Shown here: piece after piece, positions 27,791-41,863 of the stretch | Numbering within the stretch: the first letter of the stretch is position 1 | Layout of the letters: the number at the start of each line of letters is the position of its first letter | Assembly: GCA_018434325.1 (NCBI GenBank) | Contig: JAHDPO010000049.1 | Coordinates: 1 to 64,000 of the forward strand | From: Clostridia bacterium | GTDB lineage: Bacteria; Bacillota; Peptococcia; DRI-13; UBA5745 | Direction of reading: 5' to 3' | DNA length: 64,000 nt | Made by a program: the position numbers and the translations under genes | Notes under the pieces: model-generated | Databases searched by the model: none | What the model was told of the DNA's origin: nothing | Seen by the model: the letters and a program-made list of their open reading frames with translations, nothing else

Positions 27791-30700
27791 TTACTCGAAG
27801 AAAAACTCCACGCTGTATGTGATATTGCTCTTGTTATACATACAGGTGTGCGGCGTGTAGTAATAAAATTCAAGTTTGGTATATACACCGGCCTGCAATG
27901 TGCCATACATATAGACCCCGTTATAACTGTAAACCCGTGCGGGGTTCCCATCCGCAGCCGCAAAGGATGAGCCAATGGAAGAATCGAAGGACACGGTTGG
28001 CAACTGCTCCCATCTTCCCGTCAATCGGTTGTAGCCTCTTACCTGACCATAATCATAGCTTGCGCTGTGTCCGCTGACAGCCGGAACCGTAAATGTCCAT
28101 GATGTGATGGTTGCACCCTCTACGCCATCCTCAATAATCGTGGATTCCGGACCGGTCAGGGTCATGCCCCCGCCACGGTTCGGATCAGCCACAAAAAAGA
28201 TAATGGCCGCCCATGAAGACTCAGCGCCGGTACTGTCTACCGCTTTGACACGAACCGTATTTTTTCCAAGAGGATAAGTCTGCGTTTCAGCAGCTCGTCC
28301 TTCCCATACATAAGTAATCGCGTCACCATCGGGATCGGTGGAAGCCGCCTTGATGGTAACCGCTGTTCCGGGAGCTACACTGTTACCGCTTGGCGTTCTG
28401 GTAATCACCGGCGTTGTCGGTACGGAGTTGGAAATCGTAAAGGTGGTCTGCGCCCACTCTGATATACCTCCATAATTATCCTTGGCTCTGACCTGTACGG
28501 TGTGAGTGCCTGCCGGATAGTAATTGTCGGCAGCCTTATTCTGATATTCATAGGTAATAGCATCGCCATCCGGGTCGGTGCTGCTGACCGAGAGATTTAC
28601 TAAAAACTTGCCGTTGTTCGCTGTTCTCGTAACGCTGGCCTGAATGGTTGGCTTCGTGGGCGCTGTGTTTGAAACGGTAAACGTCACAGCCGTCCAGTCG
28701 GATACGCCGTCAAATCCATCCTTTGCCCGAACCTTAACGGTATACGTTCCGAGGGAATAATAGTTATCGCTGCTCCTGCCGTCAAATTCATAGGTAATCG
28801 GATCGCCATCCGGGTCGGTGCTGGCGGTGGTCAGGTTTACAAGGAATTTCCCGTTTAAGTATGTTCTTGTGACATTGGCTGTCAGTGTCGGCTTGGTCGG
28901 AGCGGTATTGGTAATCGTGATGGTTTGGGTGCAGGCAAACACTCTGTTCAGTTCATCCGTAATGGATGCGATGAGCTGATAACTGCCTGCCGTATCCACA
29001 TGAACCGTGCCGCCGCCATTGCCCAGCGAACCCTTGAAAAATTCAGAAACGGACACGGCTGCGCCATCTTTCGTTGCTGTCCATACAATGCTCTTGCCGT
29101 TCAGGTTGATGGAGCTGTTCATGTTGACAACAAAGTTTTGCCCTGTATGAATCGCCGCTGGCATAGAAAAGTTGCAGTTATAAAGGGGATAGATGCTGAT
29201 CTTAGCACTATAACAGAATACTCTGCCCAGCGCATCCGTTATGGAAGCGGTCAGGCGGTATTCGCCAACCTCCGGGAAGCGAATTTTGCCGCCCTGTGCG
29301 TTCAGGGAGCCCGTGACCGCCTGATCCAGTGGAATAACTTCGCCATTCTTCATCAGCGTCCATTCCAGCGGCAGCACATTGTTGTTTCCCCTTGTTCTCA
29401 CATCAATCTGCGTATCAGTGTAGCCATTAGCAGGCAATTCAAAGGTCAGGGAAAGCACCGGCAGGACCTCTATTTTTTCGCTGTTAAAGAGAAATACCCG
29501 GCCGGTGGCGTCTGTCACCCGTGCCTGTAAATCATATACTCCCGCACGTTTGAAGTGAATAGAGCCGCCCTGATTGCTGAGTTGGCCGTCGATGTAGGTT
29601 GCCCAATCTTGAAAACCATAGGTATTGTCAACATACCATACCGCCGTTAGTCCATCCATGTCGGTAAGGGCAGTATCAACCGTCACCATATCATCGGTGT
29701 GGACGGCGGCAGGCAGGCTGAATGCCATGCCGGGGATAGGATAAACCTTGACGGTTTTACTGTCCTCAAAAGTCCTCCCGGCCTCATCAGTCACTGCAGC
29801 GGTCACGGTATAGCTGCCTTTTTCTAAAAAGCGGATAGCACCGCCCTTGTCGGTCAGTTCATTCTCCGGCTGTATCGGCACATTGCCTTTCGCCATACTC
29901 CAAGCCACAGGCAGGGAACCGGCGTTTGTCAGCTTGACAGAAGCGGTTGCCGCCTTATCCGTGTGGGTTTCCCTGGCGAGTTCCATCGAAACAGTAATGA
30001 CAGGATATACTTTGACAGAGGCGGTATAGGTAAAGCTGCGGCCGGTGCTGTCGGTAACACCCGCTTGCAACACATATTCGCCAACCTCATAAAAACGGAT
30101 TTTACCGCCGTCATCGGTGAGGGTTCCGTCAAAGCCGTCCTCCAGTGTGATTGGCTTTCCGTCCTTCGTCAAGCTCCATTCGGCAGTCAATCCTGCTGCT
30201 TCCTGAAAGCTGGTCTTAACCTCTACGGCCGTATCCGTGTGGGTCTGAGGGGGGATATAAAAACCTGTCTCCGCAACAGGATAAACCACAGTGCTGGCCT
30301 CATGGCTGTATTCCCGTCCAAGGGCATCCATCAGGGTCGCTTTCAGCGTATAGGCGCCTTTCTGCTTAAACCGGACCGTACCACCCTCATTGGTCAGATT
30401 GCCCTCCAGCACGGAGGTGGCAGGGGTGATCTCTCCATTGTAAAGGATCGTCCAGTCAGCGGTCATATCCTGTAATTCAGAGGACACCACCTCTATTTCA
30501 ACAGGTTTATCGGTGTGGGTGGTGGCGGGAAGTTCAAACGAAAAAGCGGCCACAGGATAGATTTTAATATCCGATTTTCCAATGAACGCTCTGCCAGCCT
30601 TATCGGTCGCTGTGGCGATCAGGCTGTAATCTCCTTTGCCGAGAAAACTCACCGTACCGCCGGTATTGTCCAGCTTGCCCTCCATGCAATCGGCCAGGGG

Positions 30701-31921
30701 GATTTCTTTACCATCCTTGGTCGCAGTCCATACAAGCGTGAGATCTCCCAGCTCCTTAGTATTCACAGCAACGGTAACGGGGGTATCGGTGTGGGCGGCG
30801 GCTGGAGTCTGTACGTCGATTTCGACAATGGGATAAACCTGCACATCAGCCTTTCCGGAAAACTCCCTGCTGGTTTCATCGTAGGCAGTGGCTTTCAGAG
30901 TATAACTGCCCTTATCCTTGATTTGGATAGAGCCGCCATCGTTGGTAAGGGAGCCTGTCACGGCGTCCTGCCATTTTACCTCACCGCCATCCTTGTAGAT
31001 ATGCCAGTTTAATTGCTGCTTCACATTGTCGGAAAGCGTAGTTTTTACCACAAAGGATTGAGCCGTGTGGGCGGTTTTGTCTGTCTCTACCTTGATTTCA
31101 TAGGTGGGGTATATGGTAATGGTTTTGGTAAAGGTATAGGCTCGGTTGCCATGATTTTTAGCGCCAGCCGTCAAAACATACTGCCCCGGCTGGGTAATAG
31201 TGATTTTCCCGCCATTTTTATCAAGCGTACCCTTTAGAAAATCCCCCTGTGGGGTATCCTTTCCGTCCTCGGTAATCGTCCAGTCCAGTGACATCACGTT
31301 GCGCAGAGTGGTCTTTACCTCAAACTCCCTATCCGCGTGACTGTACTCAGGGATAAGGATTTCTACCACAGCGGCGGGATAGCTGGTACTGCCGCCCCCT
31401 GAACCACCGCCGCCCGGTTTGTCGGGCGTACTTGGCTTTTCTTCCTCCTGTTTTGATGGTTCGGTGGGCTTTGTCGGCTTCACAGGCTCACTCGGTTTTG
31501 GTGTGGGAGTAGCAGGTGGCACGGTAGGCTTTGGTATCGGGGTTACAGGCGGCACAGTGGGGGCGGCAGGCTTAGATGGCACTGACGGCTTTTCCGCAGG
31601 CTTTGCAGGGGAAGGCTTATTCTTTCCCTGTTCCATATCTTTGCCGCCGTTCCCGGTTTCCTCCGGCCTGCTATCTTCAACGCCCGGAGAGGTTATGTCA
31701 TCCGGCTGATTTCCGGGGCTTTCTTGGCCAATTTTCGGGATTACAATTTTATCGCCGGGGGTGGGGGCTGGATTGCCACTGTCCGTCACAACGGGCTGTG
31801 TCGGGTCTTTCTGCGAAAGCTGAATGGAGCAGCTTACCAGCCCGACAATAAAAATAAGGAGGGCGATGATGGCAAGAACCATAACCGCCCGCTTTGTTTT
31901 GGGATTCATCTTCTTTTTCAT
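27791..31921 (-). CDS. Repeat-rich surface lipoprotein-like protein
   Basis: A 1376-residue exported protein. Basic N-terminus, hydrophobic core (residues 12-29) and a lipobox-like LVSC put Cys31 as a possible lipid anchor; otherwise a single membrane anchor. A Pro/Thr/Lys-rich stalk (about 35-180) follows, then nine tandem domains of about 92 residues ending in VYP or IYP and carrying a conserved HTD near each start, then three PKD or Ig-like domains of about 83 residues (STDPDGD motif), then a C-terminal domain. No LPXTG. Starts ATGA-coupled to the gene upstream. Likely cell-surface adhesin that aids mating contact. Confidence 0.85.
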   Translation of the reverse strand: MKKKMNPKTKRAVMVLAIIALLIFIVGLVSCSIQLSQKDPTQPVVTDSGNPAPTPGDKIVIPKIGQESPGNQPDDITSPGVEDSRPEETGNGGKDMEQGKNKPSPAKPAEKPSVPSKPAAPTVPPVTPIPKPTVPPATPTPKPSEPVKPTKPTEPSKQEEEKPSTPDKPGGGGSGGGSTSYPAAVVEILIPEYSHADREFEVKTTLRNVMSLDWTITEDGKDTPQGDFLKGTLDKNGGKITITQPGQYVLTAGAKNHGNRAYTFTKTITIYPTYEIKVETDKTAHTAQSFVVKTTLSDNVKQQLNWHIYKDGGEVKWQDAVTGSLTNDGGSIQIKDKGSYTLKATAYDETSREFSGKADVQVYPIVEIDVQTPAAAHTDTPVTVAVNTKELGDLTLVWTATKDGKEIPLADCMEGKLDNTGGTVSFLGKGDYSLIATATDKAGRAFIGKSDIKIYPVAAFSFELPATTHTDKPVEIEVVSSELQDMTADWTILYNGEITPATSVLEGNLTNEGGTVRFKQKGAYTLKATLMDALGREYSHEASTVVYPVAETGFYIPPQTHTDTAVEVKTSFQEAAGLTAEWSLTKDGKPITLEDGFDGTLTDDGGKIRFYEVGEYVLQAGVTDSTGRSFTYTASVKVYPVITVSMELARETHTDKAATASVKLTNAGSLPVAWSMAKGNVPIQPENELTDKGGAIRFLEKGSYTVTAAVTDEAGRTFEDSKTVKVYPIPGMAFSLPAAVHTDDMVTVDTALTDMDGLTAVWYVDNTYGFQDWATYIDGQLSNQGGSIHFKRAGVYDLQARVTDATGRVFLFNSEKIEVLPVLSLTFELPANGYTDTQIDVRTRGNNNVLPLEWTLMKNGEVIPLDQAVTGSLNAQGGKIRFPEVGEYRLTASITDALGRVFCYSAKISIYPLYNCNFSMPAAIHTGQNFVVNMNSSINLNGKSIVWTATKDGAAVSVSEFFKGSLGNGGGTVHVDTAGSYQLIASITDELNRVFACTQTITITNTAPTKPTLTANVTRTYLNGKFLVNLTTASTDPDGDPITYEFDGRSSDNYYSLGTYTVKVRAKDGFDGVSDWTAVTFTVSNTAPTKPTIQASVTRTANNGKFLVNLSVSSTDPDGDAITYEYQNKAADNYYPAGTHTVQVRAKDNYGGISEWAQTTFTISNSVPTTPVITRTPSGNSVAPGTAVTIKAASTDPDGDAITYVWEGRAAETQTYPLGKNTVRVKAVDSTGAESSWAAIIFFVADPNRGGGMTLTGPESTIIEDGVEGATITSWTFTVPAVSGHSASYDYGQVRGYNRLTGRWEQLPTVSFDSSIGSSFAAADGNPARVYSYNGVYMYGTLQAGVYTKLEFYYYTPHTCMYNKSNITYSVEFFFE
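28185..31383 (-). repeat. Nine 92-residue plus three PKD-like coding repeats
   Basis: From about 31,383 down to 28,915 lie nine related units, each holding HTD or a close variant, a Trp near residue 35, GGxIxF or a variant, GxYxL, TDxxGRxF and a final YP. From about 28,915 to 28,185 lie three units that begin APTKP or VPTTP, each with STDPDGD and Tyr-rich ends. DNA identity between units looks moderate, so they are old repeats, not a fresh expansion. Confidence 0.85.
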
Positions 31922-33969: not shown

Positions 33970-36900
33970 CTATCTTTCAAATTCATTTTCATCATTTTCC
34001 GATGCGTAAACGGATACCTTTTCAGGCTCAAAGCCCTGATGTTTGATGTTGGTAAACCACTGTGACATGAAATCCTTCAAATCACGCACCCTTGACGGTG
34101 GTACGCTGTCCGTTTCATAAAAAAGCCCTATATCGTCCTGCAAGAACGAGGTAGGGTGAATGGAACAGGTCTGTTTGTCAATGGTAAAGGTAATCTCTGG
34201 GTCGCGCATGGCGTCACCGTTTTGGCTATAATAATGGGCGATACTGTATTCATCACCGCCGATGGCTTCCAGCACCAAATCTTCAAAGCCTTCGCTTTTT
34301 AACTTCATATAATACGCTTCCCCTTCAAGGACAGGGCCTGCGAAAACCGCCAGCTTCTGATACAGCCGCTGTTCCAAAGTGAGCTGCGCAGAGGGAGGAG
34401 CCGTTCTAACAGGCACACCGTCCTCATTGTCCGGCTCATAATTCATAACATCCGTGTTATCCTCATCCGGCTCTAAAACGGAGTCGGGGGTGTCCTTAAA
34501 TTCCAAAGCAAGGTCAAGTTCAACCTTTCTTCGCTGTAACTGCACCAATTTTTCCTCGCTGGTAAAGGGCTTTTCACTCTCCAGCTTTGCCGCCTCAAGC
34601 TGGTGGTGCAAATCCGCAAGCTCGGTCTTGGCGACTTCTAATTCTGATGCAATGCGTTCCGCAAGGTTCTCAATGCGGGTGATGTTTCCCAGCTCCGACT
34701 CGCCCAACTCTGTGGTATAGGTACATTTGCCGCATAACTGGATACTGATTCCATCTCCCATGTGCCGTATCAACCGGATAGGAAAGCCCGCATAGCTGCC
34801 CATATCAAGGGTGTCCCCGGAGCTTCGTCCCAGCTTGCGGGAACGGACCATAAAGTGTTCCGCCGCCTTGGTTCGCTCGTTATGGAGCCTGCCGTCAATG
34901 GTCATCTGAAACTCGGCTGGCTTATTTCCTGTGTAGGTGGAAAGGTCAGCTTCCATTCCTGCTATTTTACGCTCGGTTGCGGCGATCTTGCTTGGATAGT
35001 GTTTTTCGATTTTATACTGAAGGTCGTTGCGCTGGCTCTGCCATGCGGATTTCAGCACCGTCAGGCGGCTGATTTCATTATCCGTTTCCATCTTCTCCTT
35101 AATTCTCGGATCAGACACGGCCAAAGCCTTAAACTCGGCATACTGGAGCATGGTGCTGTCCACATCCTCACAGGTTCTGAGGGTGGAGCGCCCGGTCATA
35201 ATCTGGCTGATATACCGCTGTTTCTGCTCTAAAATCTGCCACAGATAGGCATCAAATGTCTGTTCTGTAATGTAATTAAAGATGGAAATTTCCTCGTTGT
35301 CATTGCCCTGACGGAGAATACGGCCGTTGCGCTGAATGAGGTCGGAAGGCCGCCACGGCACATCAAGGTGATGGAGCGCCACCAGCTTGTTTTGGACATT
35401 CATGCCGGTGCCCATTTTTCCGGTACTGCCCATCAGAATACGGATTTCACCGCTGCGCACTTTTTCAAAAAGCTGCTCCCGCTGTACATCCGTCTTGGCG
35501 TCGTGAATAAAGGCGATTTCCTCCGGCTTTACCCCCTGCGCAACCAGAACCTCCTTGGTAGCCTCGTAGAAATTAAAGCTGCCGTCACCCTTGGGTGTGC
35601 CTTGGTCGCAGAAGATAAGCTGGGTCAATTGCTTTTCGGCGGTTTCATGATAAATTTCAGCCGCTTTCCGGGCGCAGACATTGAGCTTCGTATTGGGGTC
35701 ATCCGGTAAATCTGGGTCAATGGCTCTCGGATCGGTGGACAGCAGGCGGGCCTCCAGCGTGAGCTTTAGGAAATTATCCTCGGAGCTGTCCACTTGGCCG
35801 TTGCGTATTTTCTCCGCACGTTCGCCAAGTTCCATCACAAAGCGTTTCTGATCCGGTGTAATTTCAGTCTTTACAACCTGTACTGCACCGGTTTTCAGCT
35901 TTGGTGTCGGCAAATCCAGCATATCGGCGGTCTTGATGTCGGCAATTAGGTGGAACATGGCCATCAGCTCAGGCAGGTTATGAAACCGTGCAAAACGGTT
36001 CTTCATTTGGTAGCCGTTACCCTCCGGCTTGATTTCCAACGAGGACTCTACCACGCCAAAGGTGCTTGCCCATGCGTCAAACATCAGCAAGCCGCGCTTT
36101 TCCAGCTCCCATGGCTGCAAGGTCTTTTGCAGAATATACAGCTCCGCCATCGTATTGGAGATGGGAGTGCCGGTCAGGTAAACCACGCCTTTGCCATTGT
36201 TCAGGTCATTGATATACTGGCATTTTTGGTGCATATCCATGGCGCGCTGGCTGCTGACCCCGGTAACCCCGGCCACGTTGCGCATTTTGGTGTAAGAAAA
36301 GTTGTTTTTATAGGCATGGGCCTCGTCCACAAACAGGGCATCCACGCCCAATTCCTCAAAGTTGATAACACTGTCCTTTTTCTCTGCGTTGAACAGCCTA
36401 TCATACCGAAACTGGAGATTAGACTTGAAAATCTGCATTTGCTTAAGCGTCCAGTCCTTGCCGTCACGGGCTTTTACTTCCGCTATCGCCTCTGTAATGG
36501 CCGCCATTTCCGATTCCATGGCCGCAAGCTGGCGCTCTCTGGATAAGCCAATGAGTTCAAAGCTGCTATGCCCCATGATAATAGCGTCATGCTCACCGGT
36601 GGCAATCCTGCTGACAAAGCGGCGGCGGTTCTTTCGCTCAAAATCCTTTTTCTCCGCCACCAAAATATTGGCGTTGGGGTACATCTTCATGTAGTGGGCT
36701 GCCCATTCTCCCACAAGGTGATTCGGCACGGCATACAGGGGTTTGTGGACTGCTCCCAGCCGTTTCATTTCGTAGCCAAGACCGACAGCGGCGTAGGTTT
36801 TCCCAGCCCCCACTTCATGTGCCATCAGCAAATTGCCATCACTGTAAAGGCCATGGGCGATGACATCGCTCTGGTGCTTGCGGAGCTTGATGCCCTCCGC

Positions 36901-37437
36901 CATATCCGGCATGAGTAGGGAGTCACCACTGTATTCACGGGGGCGGATATTATTGAAACGGTCGTTGTAGAGCTTTGTCAGACTTGCTCCACGCTCCGGG
37001 TCGGCAAACAGCCAGCTTTCAAAGGCCATCTTGATTTCCGCTTGTTTTTCACGGGCCAGGATGGTTTCCTTTTTATTGAGGACGTACTTTGTTTTTTCCT
37101 CCCCGGTATTGGGGTCAATATAATCAACCGGGTCTTTGACCTCTACTGAGCGGAGGTTTAGAGTGGTTTCCAGTATTTCGTAAGCGTTGAGCCGTCCTGT
37201 GCCATAGGACTGGTTGACCGTTACGGAGCTTGTTTCCGCACTTTTATTGGTAATATGATAGGCGCCGCTGTATTTGGAAAACTCAAGGGATATGCTAAAG
37301 CGCCCGATTTGATTTCCGGGCGAAGTCTGGAAGGTATCATACATGAATTGCTGGTAAATCTCCGGGGGAATCCATGTGGAACCAAGGGTAAAGCTGATGT
37401 CCTGCGGGGTCAGGGGAACCGGCTGCACCAGCTTCAA
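33970..37437 (-). CDS. SNF2-type helicase, C-terminal part of a split gene
   Basis: A 1155-residue DEAD/DEAH helicase section. Walker A is LMAHEVGAGKTYAA at about residue 210, DEAH box VDEAHAYKN near 370, GTPISNTMAELY near 428, and motifs V-VI run VPWRPSDLIQRNGRILRQG near 700. It belongs to the large methylase-helicase proteins found in many ICEs and phages, normally one chain of about 2600 residues. Here it is out of frame with the upstream gene; the TTG given as start is internal to the open frame and lacks a convincing ribosome site. A single extra C near 37,464-37,465 would explain the break. Confidence 0.85.
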   Translation of the reverse strand: MKLVQPVPLTPQDISFTLGSTWIPPEIYQQFMYDTFQTSPGNQIGRFSISLEFSKYSGAYHITNKSAETSSVTVNQSYGTGRLNAYEILETTLNLRSVEVKDPVDYIDPNTGEEKTKYVLNKKETILAREKQAEIKMAFESWLFADPERGASLTKLYNDRFNNIRPREYSGDSLLMPDMAEGIKLRKHQSDVIAHGLYSDGNLLMAHEVGAGKTYAAVGLGYEMKRLGAVHKPLYAVPNHLVGEWAAHYMKMYPNANILVAEKKDFERKNRRRFVSRIATGEHDAIIMGHSSFELIGLSRERQLAAMESEMAAITEAIAEVKARDGKDWTLKQMQIFKSNLQFRYDRLFNAEKKDSVINFEELGVDALFVDEAHAYKNNFSYTKMRNVAGVTGVSSQRAMDMHQKCQYINDLNNGKGVVYLTGTPISNTMAELYILQKTLQPWELEKRGLLMFDAWASTFGVVESSLEIKPEGNGYQMKNRFARFHNLPELMAMFHLIADIKTADMLDLPTPKLKTGAVQVVKTEITPDQKRFVMELGERAEKIRNGQVDSSEDNFLKLTLEARLLSTDPRAIDPDLPDDPNTKLNVCARKAAEIYHETAEKQLTQLIFCDQGTPKGDGSFNFYEATKEVLVAQGVKPEEIAFIHDAKTDVQREQLFEKVRSGEIRILMGSTGKMGTGMNVQNKLVALHHLDVPWRPSDLIQRNGRILRQGNDNEEISIFNYITEQTFDAYLWQILEQKQRYISQIMTGRSTLRTCEDVDSTMLQYAEFKALAVSDPRIKEKMETDNEISRLTVLKSAWQSQRNDLQYKIEKHYPSKIAATERKIAGMEADLSTYTGNKPAEFQMTIDGRLHNERTKAAEHFMVRSRKLGRSSGDTLDMGSYAGFPIRLIRHMGDGISIQLCGKCTYTTELGESELGNITRIENLAERIASELEVAKTELADLHHQLEAAKLESEKPFTSEEKLVQLQRRKVELDLALEFKDTPDSVLEPDEDNTDVMNYEPDNEDGVPVRTAPPSAQLTLEQRLYQKLAVFAGPVLEGEAYYMKLKSEGFEDLVLEAIGGDEYSIAHYYSQNGDAMRDPEITFTIDKQTCSIHPTSFLQDDIGLFYETDSVPPSRVRDLKDFMSQWFTNIKHQGFEPEKVSVYASENDENEFER

Positions 37438-40400
37438 TGCCTCTATTTCGGCTGAACCGTTCCGGTTCTTCCTCCGCTTTCAAGAGTGCCGTTGCCAGCT
37501 TATCCTTGACATAGCCGCTTAAATACTCGTCGGCGGTTTTCCAGCCGGTGTGCGGGTTGCCGGTGTAATCATCAGGGTCTTGATAAATTTTATCCCCCAG
37601 CTCATCAATGATTTCCTCCGGTGTAGCCTTGCGGTGATCGGGGTACTGATAGAGCCAGGACATATAGGCAAGGTCAACCTTGCCCTTCACATTGAGGGAC
37701 ACCATCAAGGCTTCTTCCGCCGAAAACACCGCTTTAGGCATGATCTTGGGCTTGATGGTCGCTTTGTAGAAGATAGCGGTCTTTTCCCATACATCCTTTT
37801 GGTCTTTTTTCTCCGCCTCGATGGAACGGAGCAGAGGGGCATTGGAATCCCTTGAAAATGCGATTACATTGGCATAGGAATTGAGATAGCCCTGCTTTTT
37901 AACAAAGCCATCATAAACATGGTTGAGATGGGCGATATGCTCCTGAAGCTGCTTTTCATATTCCATAGTGGGCAGTTCATGGAGGTCTGCATACTCGCTG
38001 TTCTGAAAGTCAATCAGGCTGCGGATGGCTGCCGTGACCTCCACCATGCCCCCGATACGCTCGGCTTTTCGGCCGGTGATGTTTTGCTTATACATCCGGG
38101 AGTTTTCACGGTAATACAGTTCTCCATTTACCAGCCCATAGCTGAAATTGCGCACATTAGGATCAGCGGGGATGGATTCGGGCAGCACTTCCTTTTCGCC
38201 CTCATATTCGGAGGTAGCCTCGGTATATTCACCGTCCAGATAGGAAATGGCTCTCTCCAGCCGTTCGTTCAAGTCCTCACCAGCTATCGGGTGGCAAGCG
38301 GTGGTCTTTTCGTTGCCGAACATGGATTCGTCAAACACCATCTCACCCAACAGCATTTCCGGGTGGTCAATAAAATAGGTGTTCATGGGAATTCCGTTTT
38401 CGTCTTGCTCCACGGACAGCCACGGACTGCTTTCCTCGTCCGGTACAATTTCCCGATCTCGCTTTTTCAGAAAAAGAATGTCTGTGGTGGCCTCGGTTCC
38501 GGCAACCTGTTTGAACGCATTGTTCGGCAATCGGATCGCACCAATCAGTTCGGCTTTTCCGGCAATGTAACGGCGCATACTGGAATTTTCCTTATCCATC
38601 GTGAACTTGGAGGTAATGAGCGCCATCATGCCGCCCGGACGGACCTTATCCAGTGATTTTGCGATAAAATAGTCGTGAATATGGAAATTGTGTTTATTAT
38701 AGCGAGGGTCATCCACCTTGATGGAGTTAAACGGCACGTTGCCCACCATCATATCGAAAAAATGGTCGGGGAAAGCCGTCTTTTCAAAGCCCATCACCTG
38801 AATGTCCGCATTGGGATAGAGCTGTTTTGCGATCTGTCCGGGGATGGGGTCGATTTCACAGCCGTAGAGCTTGGAGGACTCCATGCTGTCCGGCAGCACG
38901 GAAAAGAAGTTGCCTGTGCCAAGGGCGGGGTCTAAGATGTTGCCGCCCCGAAACCCCATACGCTCCAGCCCTTTATAGATGTGGCTGACGATGCTCTGTT
39001 CCGTGTAATAGGAGGTCAGGGTGCTTTTCTGTGCCGCCTGCAATTCTTCATTTGTCAGCAGTGATTTGATTTCTGTGTACTCTGTTTCCCAACCGCTTTT
39101 ATCCGACGTCAGCGCATTGGCAAGACCACCCCAGCCCACAAACCTCGCAAGTGTAATCTGTTCCTCCGCTGTTGCAGGGCGCCCTTGTGCTTGCAGCTCC
39201 TTTAGAAGCCGGATGGCTGCAATGTTGTTTTTGAATTTGGTTTTCGGGCCGCCATCGTAAAGATGATGTTCGGGGGAATAGTGGTAATTGAAATCTTCAC
39301 CCCAAGCACGGGCATGGAAATCATCCATAATGGTACGGTTGTACTCATCATTGGACTGGTTGACGAGGGTGGCGGCTTGGATGGCAGCCTGCGTTTCCTC
39401 TGAAAAATCGCCGCTTTGGACGCTTTCCACCACCATGGTAGCAATCTCGCCATTTGTGTAATGGTCTTTTAACGGCTTACAATCAGCAATCGCAGACAGC
39501 GGTACACGCTCGGTAATTTTTAGGCCATTCAGATTTTTAAGCTGTGCAATATCTCCAATTTCCACCGTGCGCCCATCGTGCAGGAATTTAACGATTTCAA
39601 ACACACGGTCATGGTAATAAATGCGGTCACCCTCTTGAAAGGGCATTTGCACCGGCTCCATGGAGTTTCCATCAATCAGGCCGTCGTTGCTGTCCTCGGC
39701 GGCGTCTTCATAACTATCCCGCATGGCGGGGATTGTATCGAATAAGGTGAGCTGTCTGTCGGGAGCCTCCTGTGCTGGTGTTTCAGGTTCTGAAAAGTAC
39801 ACCGTCTGCCCCTCAGCTTCCATCTCCGCTTTATCTTTTTCTGTCAGGTAGCGGTCTTGCCGGATCAGGTTAAAAATGCCGCTTTCCACCTGATTCCATG
39901 AAAGGACTTCGTTCATTTCCAGAGAACCGGATCGGTAATCAATCGCCAGCCCCTTGGGGGTATACTCCAAGCGCCATCTGTCGCCATTGGGCTGACTACT
40001 GTAACTGCCGTAGGAGTAATATTCTTTTCGAATGAAATCAGCTCTGTCTTTTTTGGCAGGCATAGACAGCATGGCTTGAAAAATCCGTTGCCTGCCGCCC
40101 TGCGTGCCGCTGCCGTACTGGAGGTATTCGTCAATAATTTTTTGCCTGTCCGTTTCAGACAGCTCAGCGGATGCCGGAGGTTCATCAGGACTATCTTCGT
40201 CCTCGTCCGCAATGCTCTGCATTTCCTCCTGTTCATCGGGAATGGCATAATCATCAATCACGGTATCTGCGGAGCTGAACGGATATGCCCCGGTCAGAAT
40301 TAAGCGGTCAATTCGAGCCGTGAGCTTGCCATAATCCTCAGTGAATTGCTGTCCCTCAACTTCAAATGTCAATCCATCATCGCCTGCGGTAAGATATAGA

Positions 40401-41863
40401 TGTTCCCCGGTTTCCGTGATATAATCGGTATCCAGCTTGCCATAAAAGGCTTTTAGGATTTTAGCTTTCACGGTCTGCTTATGTCCGCCCTCAAAGAATT
40501 TGTGAATTTCCGCTGCCCATTCCCTTGTGTCAGGGGTAATATCATCAGCGCACAGCACCACATCAATGAGGTCGGAGATTTCTTCCGCGTCCAGTGCATG
40601 AACCTGTTCGGGGGCCTCCTGCTCGGAAACAGGTTCATGCGTTTTGGAGGTAGGCGGGACAGAAAAAAAGCCGCCCGCAGACGGCTGTTTACCATCTGTG
40701 GGCGGCTCTGTTGTTTGTGTTATTGGGGCTTCTGTACCAATTCGCTGATCACGATTTCCTCCGCTGTATCGGTTATCATGCTCATGTGGGCGGCTCTCTC
40801 CATCGTATCCTCGGTGTCCGGCATCGGCTGGGCGGTCAAAAGTTCCTGTATCAGCCGTTCCTTGCGGTTCTCGGCTTCCTCGTCCACCTTCAGAATCATC
40901 TCGTTGATTTTGCCCTGTGCCACCAGCTCCGACAGGCGGTGCGGGTGGTTCTCCAGCATGAAGTTCTTCCACAGGTTCCCGAATCTGCCCACCGGCATCT
41001 GGTCGGTTTTCTCGTTCTCCGAGATTTGCAGTTCGGGGTAGAGCAGACCGTCCTCGCCCTTCCGGTAATTGAATTTCATTAACGGTTCGGTTCTCATAAA
41101 CTTGGCTCCTTTCGATTTTAATTTGCTGAATTTCCTGATGAATTTCTCTTAAAATGGGTCTTGCAAGGGAAACTGTGTAGCTTCCCATTACCATAAATAG
41201 TTCCAAGCTGTTAAAGTGGCTGATGTTCGTAAAGGTGTTTTCCTCAAATAGCTCCGTGGAAAGTCCACACTTTTGGAACACGGTATAGGCTACGCTGTCG
41301 GTGACAAGCTCCATAAACTCCGCTTTTACCGCTTCGATAGGGGCGTCGTAAAGCACACTGCTTTCGTCACGCACCTTAAAGTTTTCCATGTACTGCGGTA
41401 AGATCTGACGTACCCGTTGCTGCACCAGCTTATATAGGCACCGCTCGATACTGGAGGTAGGTGTACTGTACCTTTCATGAAATCTTGCTAAAACGCTGGG
41501 CTTATACTGATCCTCCAACTCCCAATGATACCGCAAAACATTTTGAAAGCTCTGTGGAGTGCCATTGGTGTCCGTTAAGTCAAACAGGTATTTTAGACTG
41601 GCATTGGGGTTGGTCATGTCGATGACAGCAATGCCTTTTGCGCCTGCATTGATATTTCGGTCAATTCGCTTGTCATGCCATTCGTCAAAGGTGGCAAGCT
41701 GGGTTGCATCAGGCCGCTGCGCATAAACGAGTACCGCATTATCAAAGGAACGCTTATAATACCTCGCCGCGCAGGACAGCAGACCTTTCCACTCCACAGG
41801 GTTTTTCGTGTATTCCTGTACCGACTTTTTATATAGGTCGGCAAGAATGGTTGTCTTGCTCAA
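37337..41863 (-). CDS. LtrC/methylase-helicase protein, N-terminal part
   Basis: A 1508-residue section. Residues 1-250 resemble the N-terminal region of LtrC/ArdC-like ICE proteins. Residues 256-381 are a disordered Gly/Arg/Pro-rich linker. Residues near 970-1060 form an adenine-methylase fold: motif I ILDPALGTGNFFSV and motif IV GNVPFN, where the usual NPPF has become NVPF. The last 50 residues are out of frame relative to the true continuation, so the natural reading passes to the frame that opens at 37,437. TTG start overlaps the parB stop. Likely helps DNA handling or protection during transfer. A second gene is nested in the linker. Confidence 0.85.
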   Translation of the reverse strand: MSKTTILADLYKKSVQEYTKNPVEWKGLLSCAARYYKRSFDNAVLVYAQRPDATQLATFDEWHDKRIDRNINAGAKGIAVIDMTNPNASLKYLFDLTDTNGTPQSFQNVLRYHWELEDQYKPSVLARFHERYSTPTSSIERCLYKLVQQRVRQILPQYMENFKVRDESSVLYDAPIEAVKAEFMELVTDSVAYTVFQKCGLSTELFEENTFTNISHFNSLELFMVMGSYTVSLARPILREIHQEIQQIKIERSQVYENRTVNEIQLPEGRGRSALPRTANLGERENRPDAGGQIREPVEELHAGEPPAPPVGAGGTGQNQRDDSEGGRGSREPQGTADTGTFDRPADAGHRGYDGESRPHEHDNRYSGGNRDQRIGTEAPITQTTEPPTDGKQPSAGGFFSVPPTSKTHEPVSEQEAPEQVHALDAEEISDLIDVVLCADDITPDTREWAAEIHKFFEGGHKQTVKAKILKAFYGKLDTDYITETGEHLYLTAGDDGLTFEVEGQQFTEDYGKLTARIDRLILTGAYPFSSADTVIDDYAIPDEQEEMQSIADEDEDSPDEPPASAELSETDRQKIIDEYLQYGSGTQGGRQRIFQAMLSMPAKKDRADFIRKEYYSYGSYSSQPNGDRWRLEYTPKGLAIDYRSGSLEMNEVLSWNQVESGIFNLIRQDRYLTEKDKAEMEAEGQTVYFSEPETPAQEAPDRQLTLFDTIPAMRDSYEDAAEDSNDGLIDGNSMEPVQMPFQEGDRIYYHDRVFEIVKFLHDGRTVEIGDIAQLKNLNGLKITERVPLSAIADCKPLKDHYTNGEIATMVVESVQSGDFSEETQAAIQAATLVNQSNDEYNRTIMDDFHARAWGEDFNYHYSPEHHLYDGGPKTKFKNNIAAIRLLKELQAQGRPATAEEQITLARFVGWGGLANALTSDKSGWETEYTEIKSLLTNEELQAAQKSTLTSYYTEQSIVSHIYKGLERMGFRGGNILDPALGTGNFFSVLPDSMESSKLYGCEIDPIPGQIAKQLYPNADIQVMGFEKTAFPDHFFDMMVGNVPFNSIKVDDPRYNKHNFHIHDYFIAKSLDKVRPGGMMALITSKFTMDKENSSMRRYIAGKAELIGAIRLPNNAFKQVAGTEATTDILFLKKRDREIVPDEESSPWLSVEQDENGIPMNTYFIDHPEMLLGEMVFDESMFGNEKTTACHPIAGEDLNERLERAISYLDGEYTEATSEYEGEKEVLPESIPADPNVRNFSYGLVNGELYYRENSRMYKQNITGRKAERIGGMVEVTAAIRSLIDFQNSEYADLHELPTMEYEKQLQEHIAHLNHVYDGFVKKQGYLNSYANVIAFSRDSNAPLLRSIEAEKKDQKDVWEKTAIFYKATIKPKIMPKAVFSAEEALMVSLNVKGKVDLAYMSWLYQYPDHRKATPEEIIDELGDKIYQDPDDYTGNPHTGWKTADEYLSGYVKDKLATALLKAEEEPERFSRNRGIEAGAAGSPDPAGHQLYPWFHMDSPGDLPAIHV
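40663..40707 (-). terminator. Intrinsic terminator inside the helicase gene
   Basis: A 13-base stem with one wobble pair (40,669-40,681 with 40,695-40,707) and a 13-base loop is followed on the minus strand by seven or eight T. It begins 13 bases after the stop of the nested TnpV-like gene. In the helicase frame this sequence encodes a Pro/Thr/Gly-rich stretch. Confidence 0.75.
40720..41097 (-). CDS. TnpV-like protein nested in the helicase gene
   Basis: A 125-residue protein in another frame of the same strand as the helicase gene. It has folded-protein character: MPVGRFGNLWKNFMLENHP, GKINEMILKVDEEAENRKER and a final AEEIVISELV. This fits the TnpV pattern (a Gly-x-Phe/Tyr-Gly motif, Leu-rich helix, GKL/GKI, then AEEIV-Glu-Leu) of transposon-borne small proteins. 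A clear GGAG lies eight bases before the ATG at 41,097 and an intrinsic terminator follows the stop. The helicase chain across the same bases is low-complexity. Both frames appear to be used. Function of TnpV is unknown. Confidence 0.7.
   Translation of the reverse strand: MRTEPLMKFNYRKGEDGLLYPELQISENEKTDQMPVGRFGNLWKNFMLENHPHRLSELVAQGKINEMILKVDEEAENRKERLIQELLTAQPMPDTEDTMERAAHMSMITDTAEEIVISELVQKPQ

Follow-up and report, generated by a model that had tools for sequence, protein, structure and literature searches.

A tnpV gene nested out of frame within polyvalent methylase/helicase genes of Bacillota conjugative elements

The nested gene and its host

We analyzed a 64,000-nucleotide stretch of DNA from a Clostridia bacterium (hereafter, the window) and found on its minus strand a polyvalent adenine-methylase/SNF2-helicase gene of a conjugative element. 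The first part of this gene is an ORF of 1,508 amino acids (37337–41863, minus strand) encoding an N-terminal domain, a linker and an N6-adenine methylase; the second part (33970–37437, minus strand) encodes an SNF2/Helicase_C ATPase and DUF6908. The two parts are joined in loci L031 and L081, where the gene runs uninterrupted, and the methylase and the ATPase also form a single chain in L039 and L045. In the window, a frameshift near position 37443, some 3.6 kb beyond tnpV, divides the gene, so that either the giant protein may be inactive in this copy or the assembly may be in error. The N-terminal domain (41099–41863, minus strand; 255 residues) served as the single-coding control region. 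None of 13 such domains produced a Pfam match when ArdC-N was sought, and the structure model of the region was of low confidence and too poor for a fold search. The linker that follows (40720–41098, minus strand; residues 256–381) is the putatively dual-coding stretch, with a hydrophilic helicase reading rich in Gly, Arg, Pro, Asp and Glu.

Across this linker, at 40720–41097 on the minus strand, lies an ORF of 125 codons that begins with an ATG at 41097 and is one base off the frame of the surrounding 37337–41863 ORF. The minus strand at the start reads AATCGAAAGGAGCCAAGTTTATG, containing a Shine–Dalgarno site AAGGAG at 41106–41111, with 8 bases between its GGAG and the ATG. The sequence-only reading had described a TnpV-like protein of 125 residues, encoded on the same strand as helicase residues 256–381 in another frame and preceded at eight bases by GGAG; its coordinates proved exact, and the GGAG was found on the minus strand, within AAGGAG. 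The assignment to TnpV held as well, since the predicted protein matches Pfam family PF14198 over its full length (profile positions 5–111 of 111) with an E value of 5.7e-22 and a score of 78.2 bits (cut-off 27). Both the central G(K/R)(Y/F/W)G motif and the C-terminal AEE of the family are present; across 27 members, A112 and E114 are invariant and G40, G62 and E113 nearly so. It is the sole TnpV of its genome. An alternative-frame ORF of 114 amino acids also occurs within the same host ORF, so the bare length of the tnpV frame is unremarkable, and we rejected length by itself as evidence; the Pfam match and the conservation in relatives are far beyond chance.

Distribution of the nesting and selection in the two frames

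We searched for TnpV over Bacillota genomes and located the hosts independently by a search with the helicase N-terminal domain. This gave 142 distinct TnpV genes, 92 of them immediately following this same N-terminal domain of the helicase and 50 standalone; loci within one clade are related, and these counts are not numbers of independent events. A comparison across homologous helicases was one of the checks that the sequence-only reading had proposed, and it found TnpV in the same place and in frame +1 in 92 of 92 cases, 90 of them within an open helicase frame. All 50 standalone genes had stops in the helicase-equivalent frame (mean 5.3). In one class, represented by 245 genomes, 48 of 67 matches to the N-terminal domain (E ≤ about 1e-31) had a TnpV 14–233 bases downstream, again without exception in frame +1. 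Most of the remaining 19 also have a TnpV-like ORF, divergent or unlisted, whose site and frame are the same; they include streptococcal-type helicases, in which Pfam detects little or nothing in the nested ORF but its dN/dS is 0.14. Nested genes were also found in the more distant helicases L216 and L217, at 43 and 36 bits and both with Shine–Dalgarno sites. Named carriers comprise Lacrimispora, Butyricicoccus, Anaerocolumna, Oscillibacter, Kineothrix, Virgibacillus and Enterococcus. The nesting is thus general in this helicase family and not peculiar to the element in the window.

Several loci deserve separate mention. In the streptococcal-type and related helicases L175–L178, L180–L183 and L187, the ORF at the nested site is of the type MYFDEMIR..., which is an unrecognised branch of the TnpV family. 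A true exception is the helicase L174/L218 (G448:C68), which belongs to the same family but whose linker is shorter and lacks a nested TnpV; L218 indicates that loss of tnpV is possible, and the TnpV-less form suggests that the linker is dispensable. Two hosts were broken: L191 (G448:C216) has two tandem TnpV copies where the helicase breaks, and L145 (G427:C50) has a stop in the helicase frame and an intact TnpV; both are possible steps of escape. For scans of sequence collections, family-wide patterns were unusable because the TnpV family is too divergent, and scans with close TnpV subfamilies found little nested material from viral contigs.

Nested genes typically carry their own translation start. 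A strong Shine–Dalgarno site at proper spacing preceded 83 of the 92 nested starts, a figure slightly inflated by loci with more than one candidate start, and 77 of these 83 starts were ATG. The corresponding background among start-like triplets in the host N-terminal domain was 3.2%.

We then compared the two frames in 11 close relatives, whose overlap aligned without indels. Within the N-terminal domain, the differences at helicase codon positions 1, 2 and 3 were 0.18, 0.14 and 0.47, whereas in the overlap they were 0.33, 0.17 and 0.12: the helicase first position, which is the TnpV wobble position, was the most variable and the helicase third position the least. Amino acid identity across the overlap was 75% for TnpV, 58% for the helicase reading and 59% for the unused third frame. 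Using our own site-class implementation in the manner of OLGenie, with bootstrap, we estimated dN/dS (dNN/dSN) in the overlap at 0.19 for TnpV (bootstrap range 0.13–0.26) and 1.07 for the helicase; the pattern was reversed in the N-terminal control, with 0.07 for the helicase and 1.03 for the TnpV frame. The TnpV frame also had values of 0.14–0.28 in the overlaps of five further TnpV clades, the streptococcal-type clade and a small related group. These estimates show purifying selection on TnpV in the overlap. The sequence-only reading had called for a codon-position test in both frames and expected the low-complexity helicase reading to be the constrained one; its Gly/Arg/Pro-rich composition was borne out, but it is TnpV that holds its residues.

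For the helicase frame, we saw no selection on residue identity in the overlap (dN/dS about 1) and asked what else is kept. In a first set, none of 30 nested loci and all of 18 standalone loci had at least one stop in the helicase frame, a partly circular contrast, as the nested class was defined by an open host ORF; larger sets, with nested loci defined instead by the upstream N-terminal domain, gave the same result. Where a T at the TnpV wobble position would create a helicase stop, it was present at 8 of 2,050 positions in nested genes and 264 of 1,083 in standalone genes. All eight come from the two hosts that are broken; T is used at 20% of the other wobble positions of nested genes. We further permuted synonymous codons, holding the TnpV protein and the codon usage constant and excluding helicase stops. 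The helicase reading was less hydrophobic than the permutations in 41 of 42 nested genes, and below expectation in just 14 of 50 standalone genes. The linker is therefore selected as open and hydrophilic and not for given residues, and it is probably disordered. Taken together, TnpV is the frame selected residue by residue and the helicase the frame constrained mainly in openness and hydrophilicity, which agrees with the true dual coding proposed from the first reading of the locus.

Origin of the overlap and alternative explanations

Strong selection and the recurrence of the same site and frame across Bacillota indicate that dual coding of this stretch of DNA has been maintained for a long time, and we hold it very probable that 40720–41097 is a true dual-coding locus, a degree of confidence that applies to the dual coding and not to the role or origin of tnpV. 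In the proposed mechanism, one mRNA would carry the giant methylase/SNF2-helicase gene and a complete tnpV nested in its +1 frame. Ribosomes making the giant chain would read the overlap as an unstructured hydrophilic linker from the N-terminal domain to the methylase part, while other ribosomes would bind the internal AAGGAG and start at the tnpV ATG, releasing a separate protein of about 115–125 residues. From these sequence patterns, we infer that the nested gene is actually translated.

To place the nested and standalone genes relative to each other, we used trees of 135 and 98 TnpV proteins, based on 114 columns and with many weak forks. The trees required 6–7 changes between the nested and standalone states, at least four of them forced by supported branches. 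When they were rooted on L216 and L217, the nested genes came out at the base, with the main standalone clade (98/95 support) inside them, and a standalone branch in that position has probably escaped from the overlap. Nesting is thus probably the ancestral state, left several times by standalone genes, and overprinting is the likely origin of tnpV. A broader scenario, to which we give roughly even chances, is that overprinting in the polyvalent methylase/helicase linker of Bacillota conjugative elements gave rise to the TnpV family as a whole, which stayed there as the elements spread and repeatedly escaped as standalone genes such as the tnpV of Tn4451. An origin by insertion, with a standalone tnpV entering the linker and being kept there, would leave the present dual coding unchanged and is compatible with the explanation preferred here. 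Standalone TnpV is known in Tn4451-type elements (PMC3158075), and one early insertion would be enough to account for nesting in nearly every helicase sampled. With the distant nested outgroup, however, the main standalone clade lies deep inside the nested genes, and the lack of a confident structural relative of TnpV is weak evidence in the same direction; we regard insertion as a real though somewhat less probable origin.

The remaining alternatives fare much worse. The N-terminal domain, tnpV and the methylase/helicase could be three separate proteins, with the helicase frame across tnpV fortuitously open and untranslated, and the helicase dN/dS near 1 indeed means that nothing shows the linker residues to matter. 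Against this, the frame is open in 90 of 92 hosts, compared with about five stops per standalone TnpV; the permutation test reveals extra selection against hydrophobic residues in that same frame; and the hosts are single ORFs of about 2,000–3,500 codons with sequence conserved on either side of tnpV. We consider separate genes quite improbable. Marginally less probable still is that TnpV has no start of its own and that programmed ribosomal frameshifting appends it to the N-terminal domain, an idea to which some loci lend appeal in that their TnpV frame is free of stops for tens of codons before the start. In 11 of 83 loci, the TnpV start is preceded by an in-frame stop at a distance of 0–1 codons, and in about half of the loci such a stop is no more than 14 codons away, which argues against a fusion of this kind, as do the strong Shine–Dalgarno sites and the predominance of ATG among the starts. 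A –1 shift leads into the other frame and was rejected on that ground. Finally, a dead tnpV frame kept open just through helicase constraint on the DNA has nothing in its favour among our results and is refuted by the codon-position test, with residues retained by the TnpV frame at low dN/dS while the helicase reading changes as freely as the unused third frame.

TnpV function and relation to known systems

In an AlphaFold2 model of TnpV (pLDDT 85), helices follow a beta hairpin. A lambda Xis-like winged-helix fold was sought by comparing the model with the PDB, without a confident match (best E 1.2), and Foldseek and VIA-align likewise found no confident relative. The TnpV profile (alignment A1) gave weak matches to two Alba-type chains (E 0.062 and 0.13); the Alba family binds nucleic acid, and the matches are probably due to chance. 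Neither these nor the serine-integrase matches were used. Among PHROGs, TnpV hit just a family of unknown function (phrog_24764). In four inspected loci (L199, L206, L041 and L205), standalone TnpV genes lie directly beside large serine recombinase genes, which fits the idea of a recombination accessory in Tn4451, where TnpV was postulated to aid excision from its resemblance to lambda Xis (PMC3158075). Nested copies are linked to a DarB-like protein, for which protection of incoming element DNA has been proposed (PMC5512222). We tentatively suggest that TnpV might be a small accessory factor that is produced together with the giant protein and works on the DNA of the element during transfer, excision or establishment; calling the Tn4451 protein excisionase-like is one form of this guess. 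The nesting ties TnpV to the DNA-entry machinery.

The TnpV proteins of Tn4451 and Tn6104–Tn6106 belong to the same family over the full length (PF14198), but their genes are standalone, apparently a state derived from the nesting described here. The host gene resembles those of the polyvalent SWI2/SNF2 ATPase-adenine methylase proteins of phages and conjugative elements (DarB-like; PMC5512222) in having a methylase, an SNF2 ATPase and an N-terminal domain within one giant chain, while the second gene inside it is new; the words TnpV and overlap are absent from the main text of that paper. Literature searches, which covered subscription journals in part, found no report of nesting in these elements.

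Long same-strand, fully nested bacterial genes with strong evidence of selection are, to our knowledge, rare, and the cases known to us are recent or lineage-bound. In Bacillus subtilis, the small regulatory gene comS is nested out of frame in the giant Firmicute gene srfAB, a case that is not known outside Bacillus. The two genes have been treated together (PMC12915044). Unlike comS, the tnpV nesting spans Clostridia and Bacilli, and its product is a Pfam-known protein also encoded by separate genes. Full overlap of the coding sequence and a proposed origin by overprinting are shared with laoB, which is reported to be antiparallel (PMC5810103), and with an E. coli orphan gene reportedly of recent origin (PMC4683798); tnpV is on the same strand as its host, occurs throughout the phylum and has dN/dS support from several clades. 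As the tnpV overlap is old, phylum-wide and carried by mobile elements, with both partners of recognisable families, it allows comparative study of how an overlapping gene arises, is maintained and escapes. The nested start codon can be removed with the helicase protein unchanged, which makes a clean test of tnpV possible.

Under annotation rules that admit embedded genes only when individually justified (PMC8665328), a nested tnpV would be hidden; in the two plasmid records inspected, the SNF2 gene alone was listed at the site, in an incomplete gene table. Elsewhere in the window, at 27791–31921 on the minus strand, a cargo gene encodes what is likely a surface protein of 1,376 amino acids, in which similar segments recur many times and the N-terminal stretch is rich in proline.
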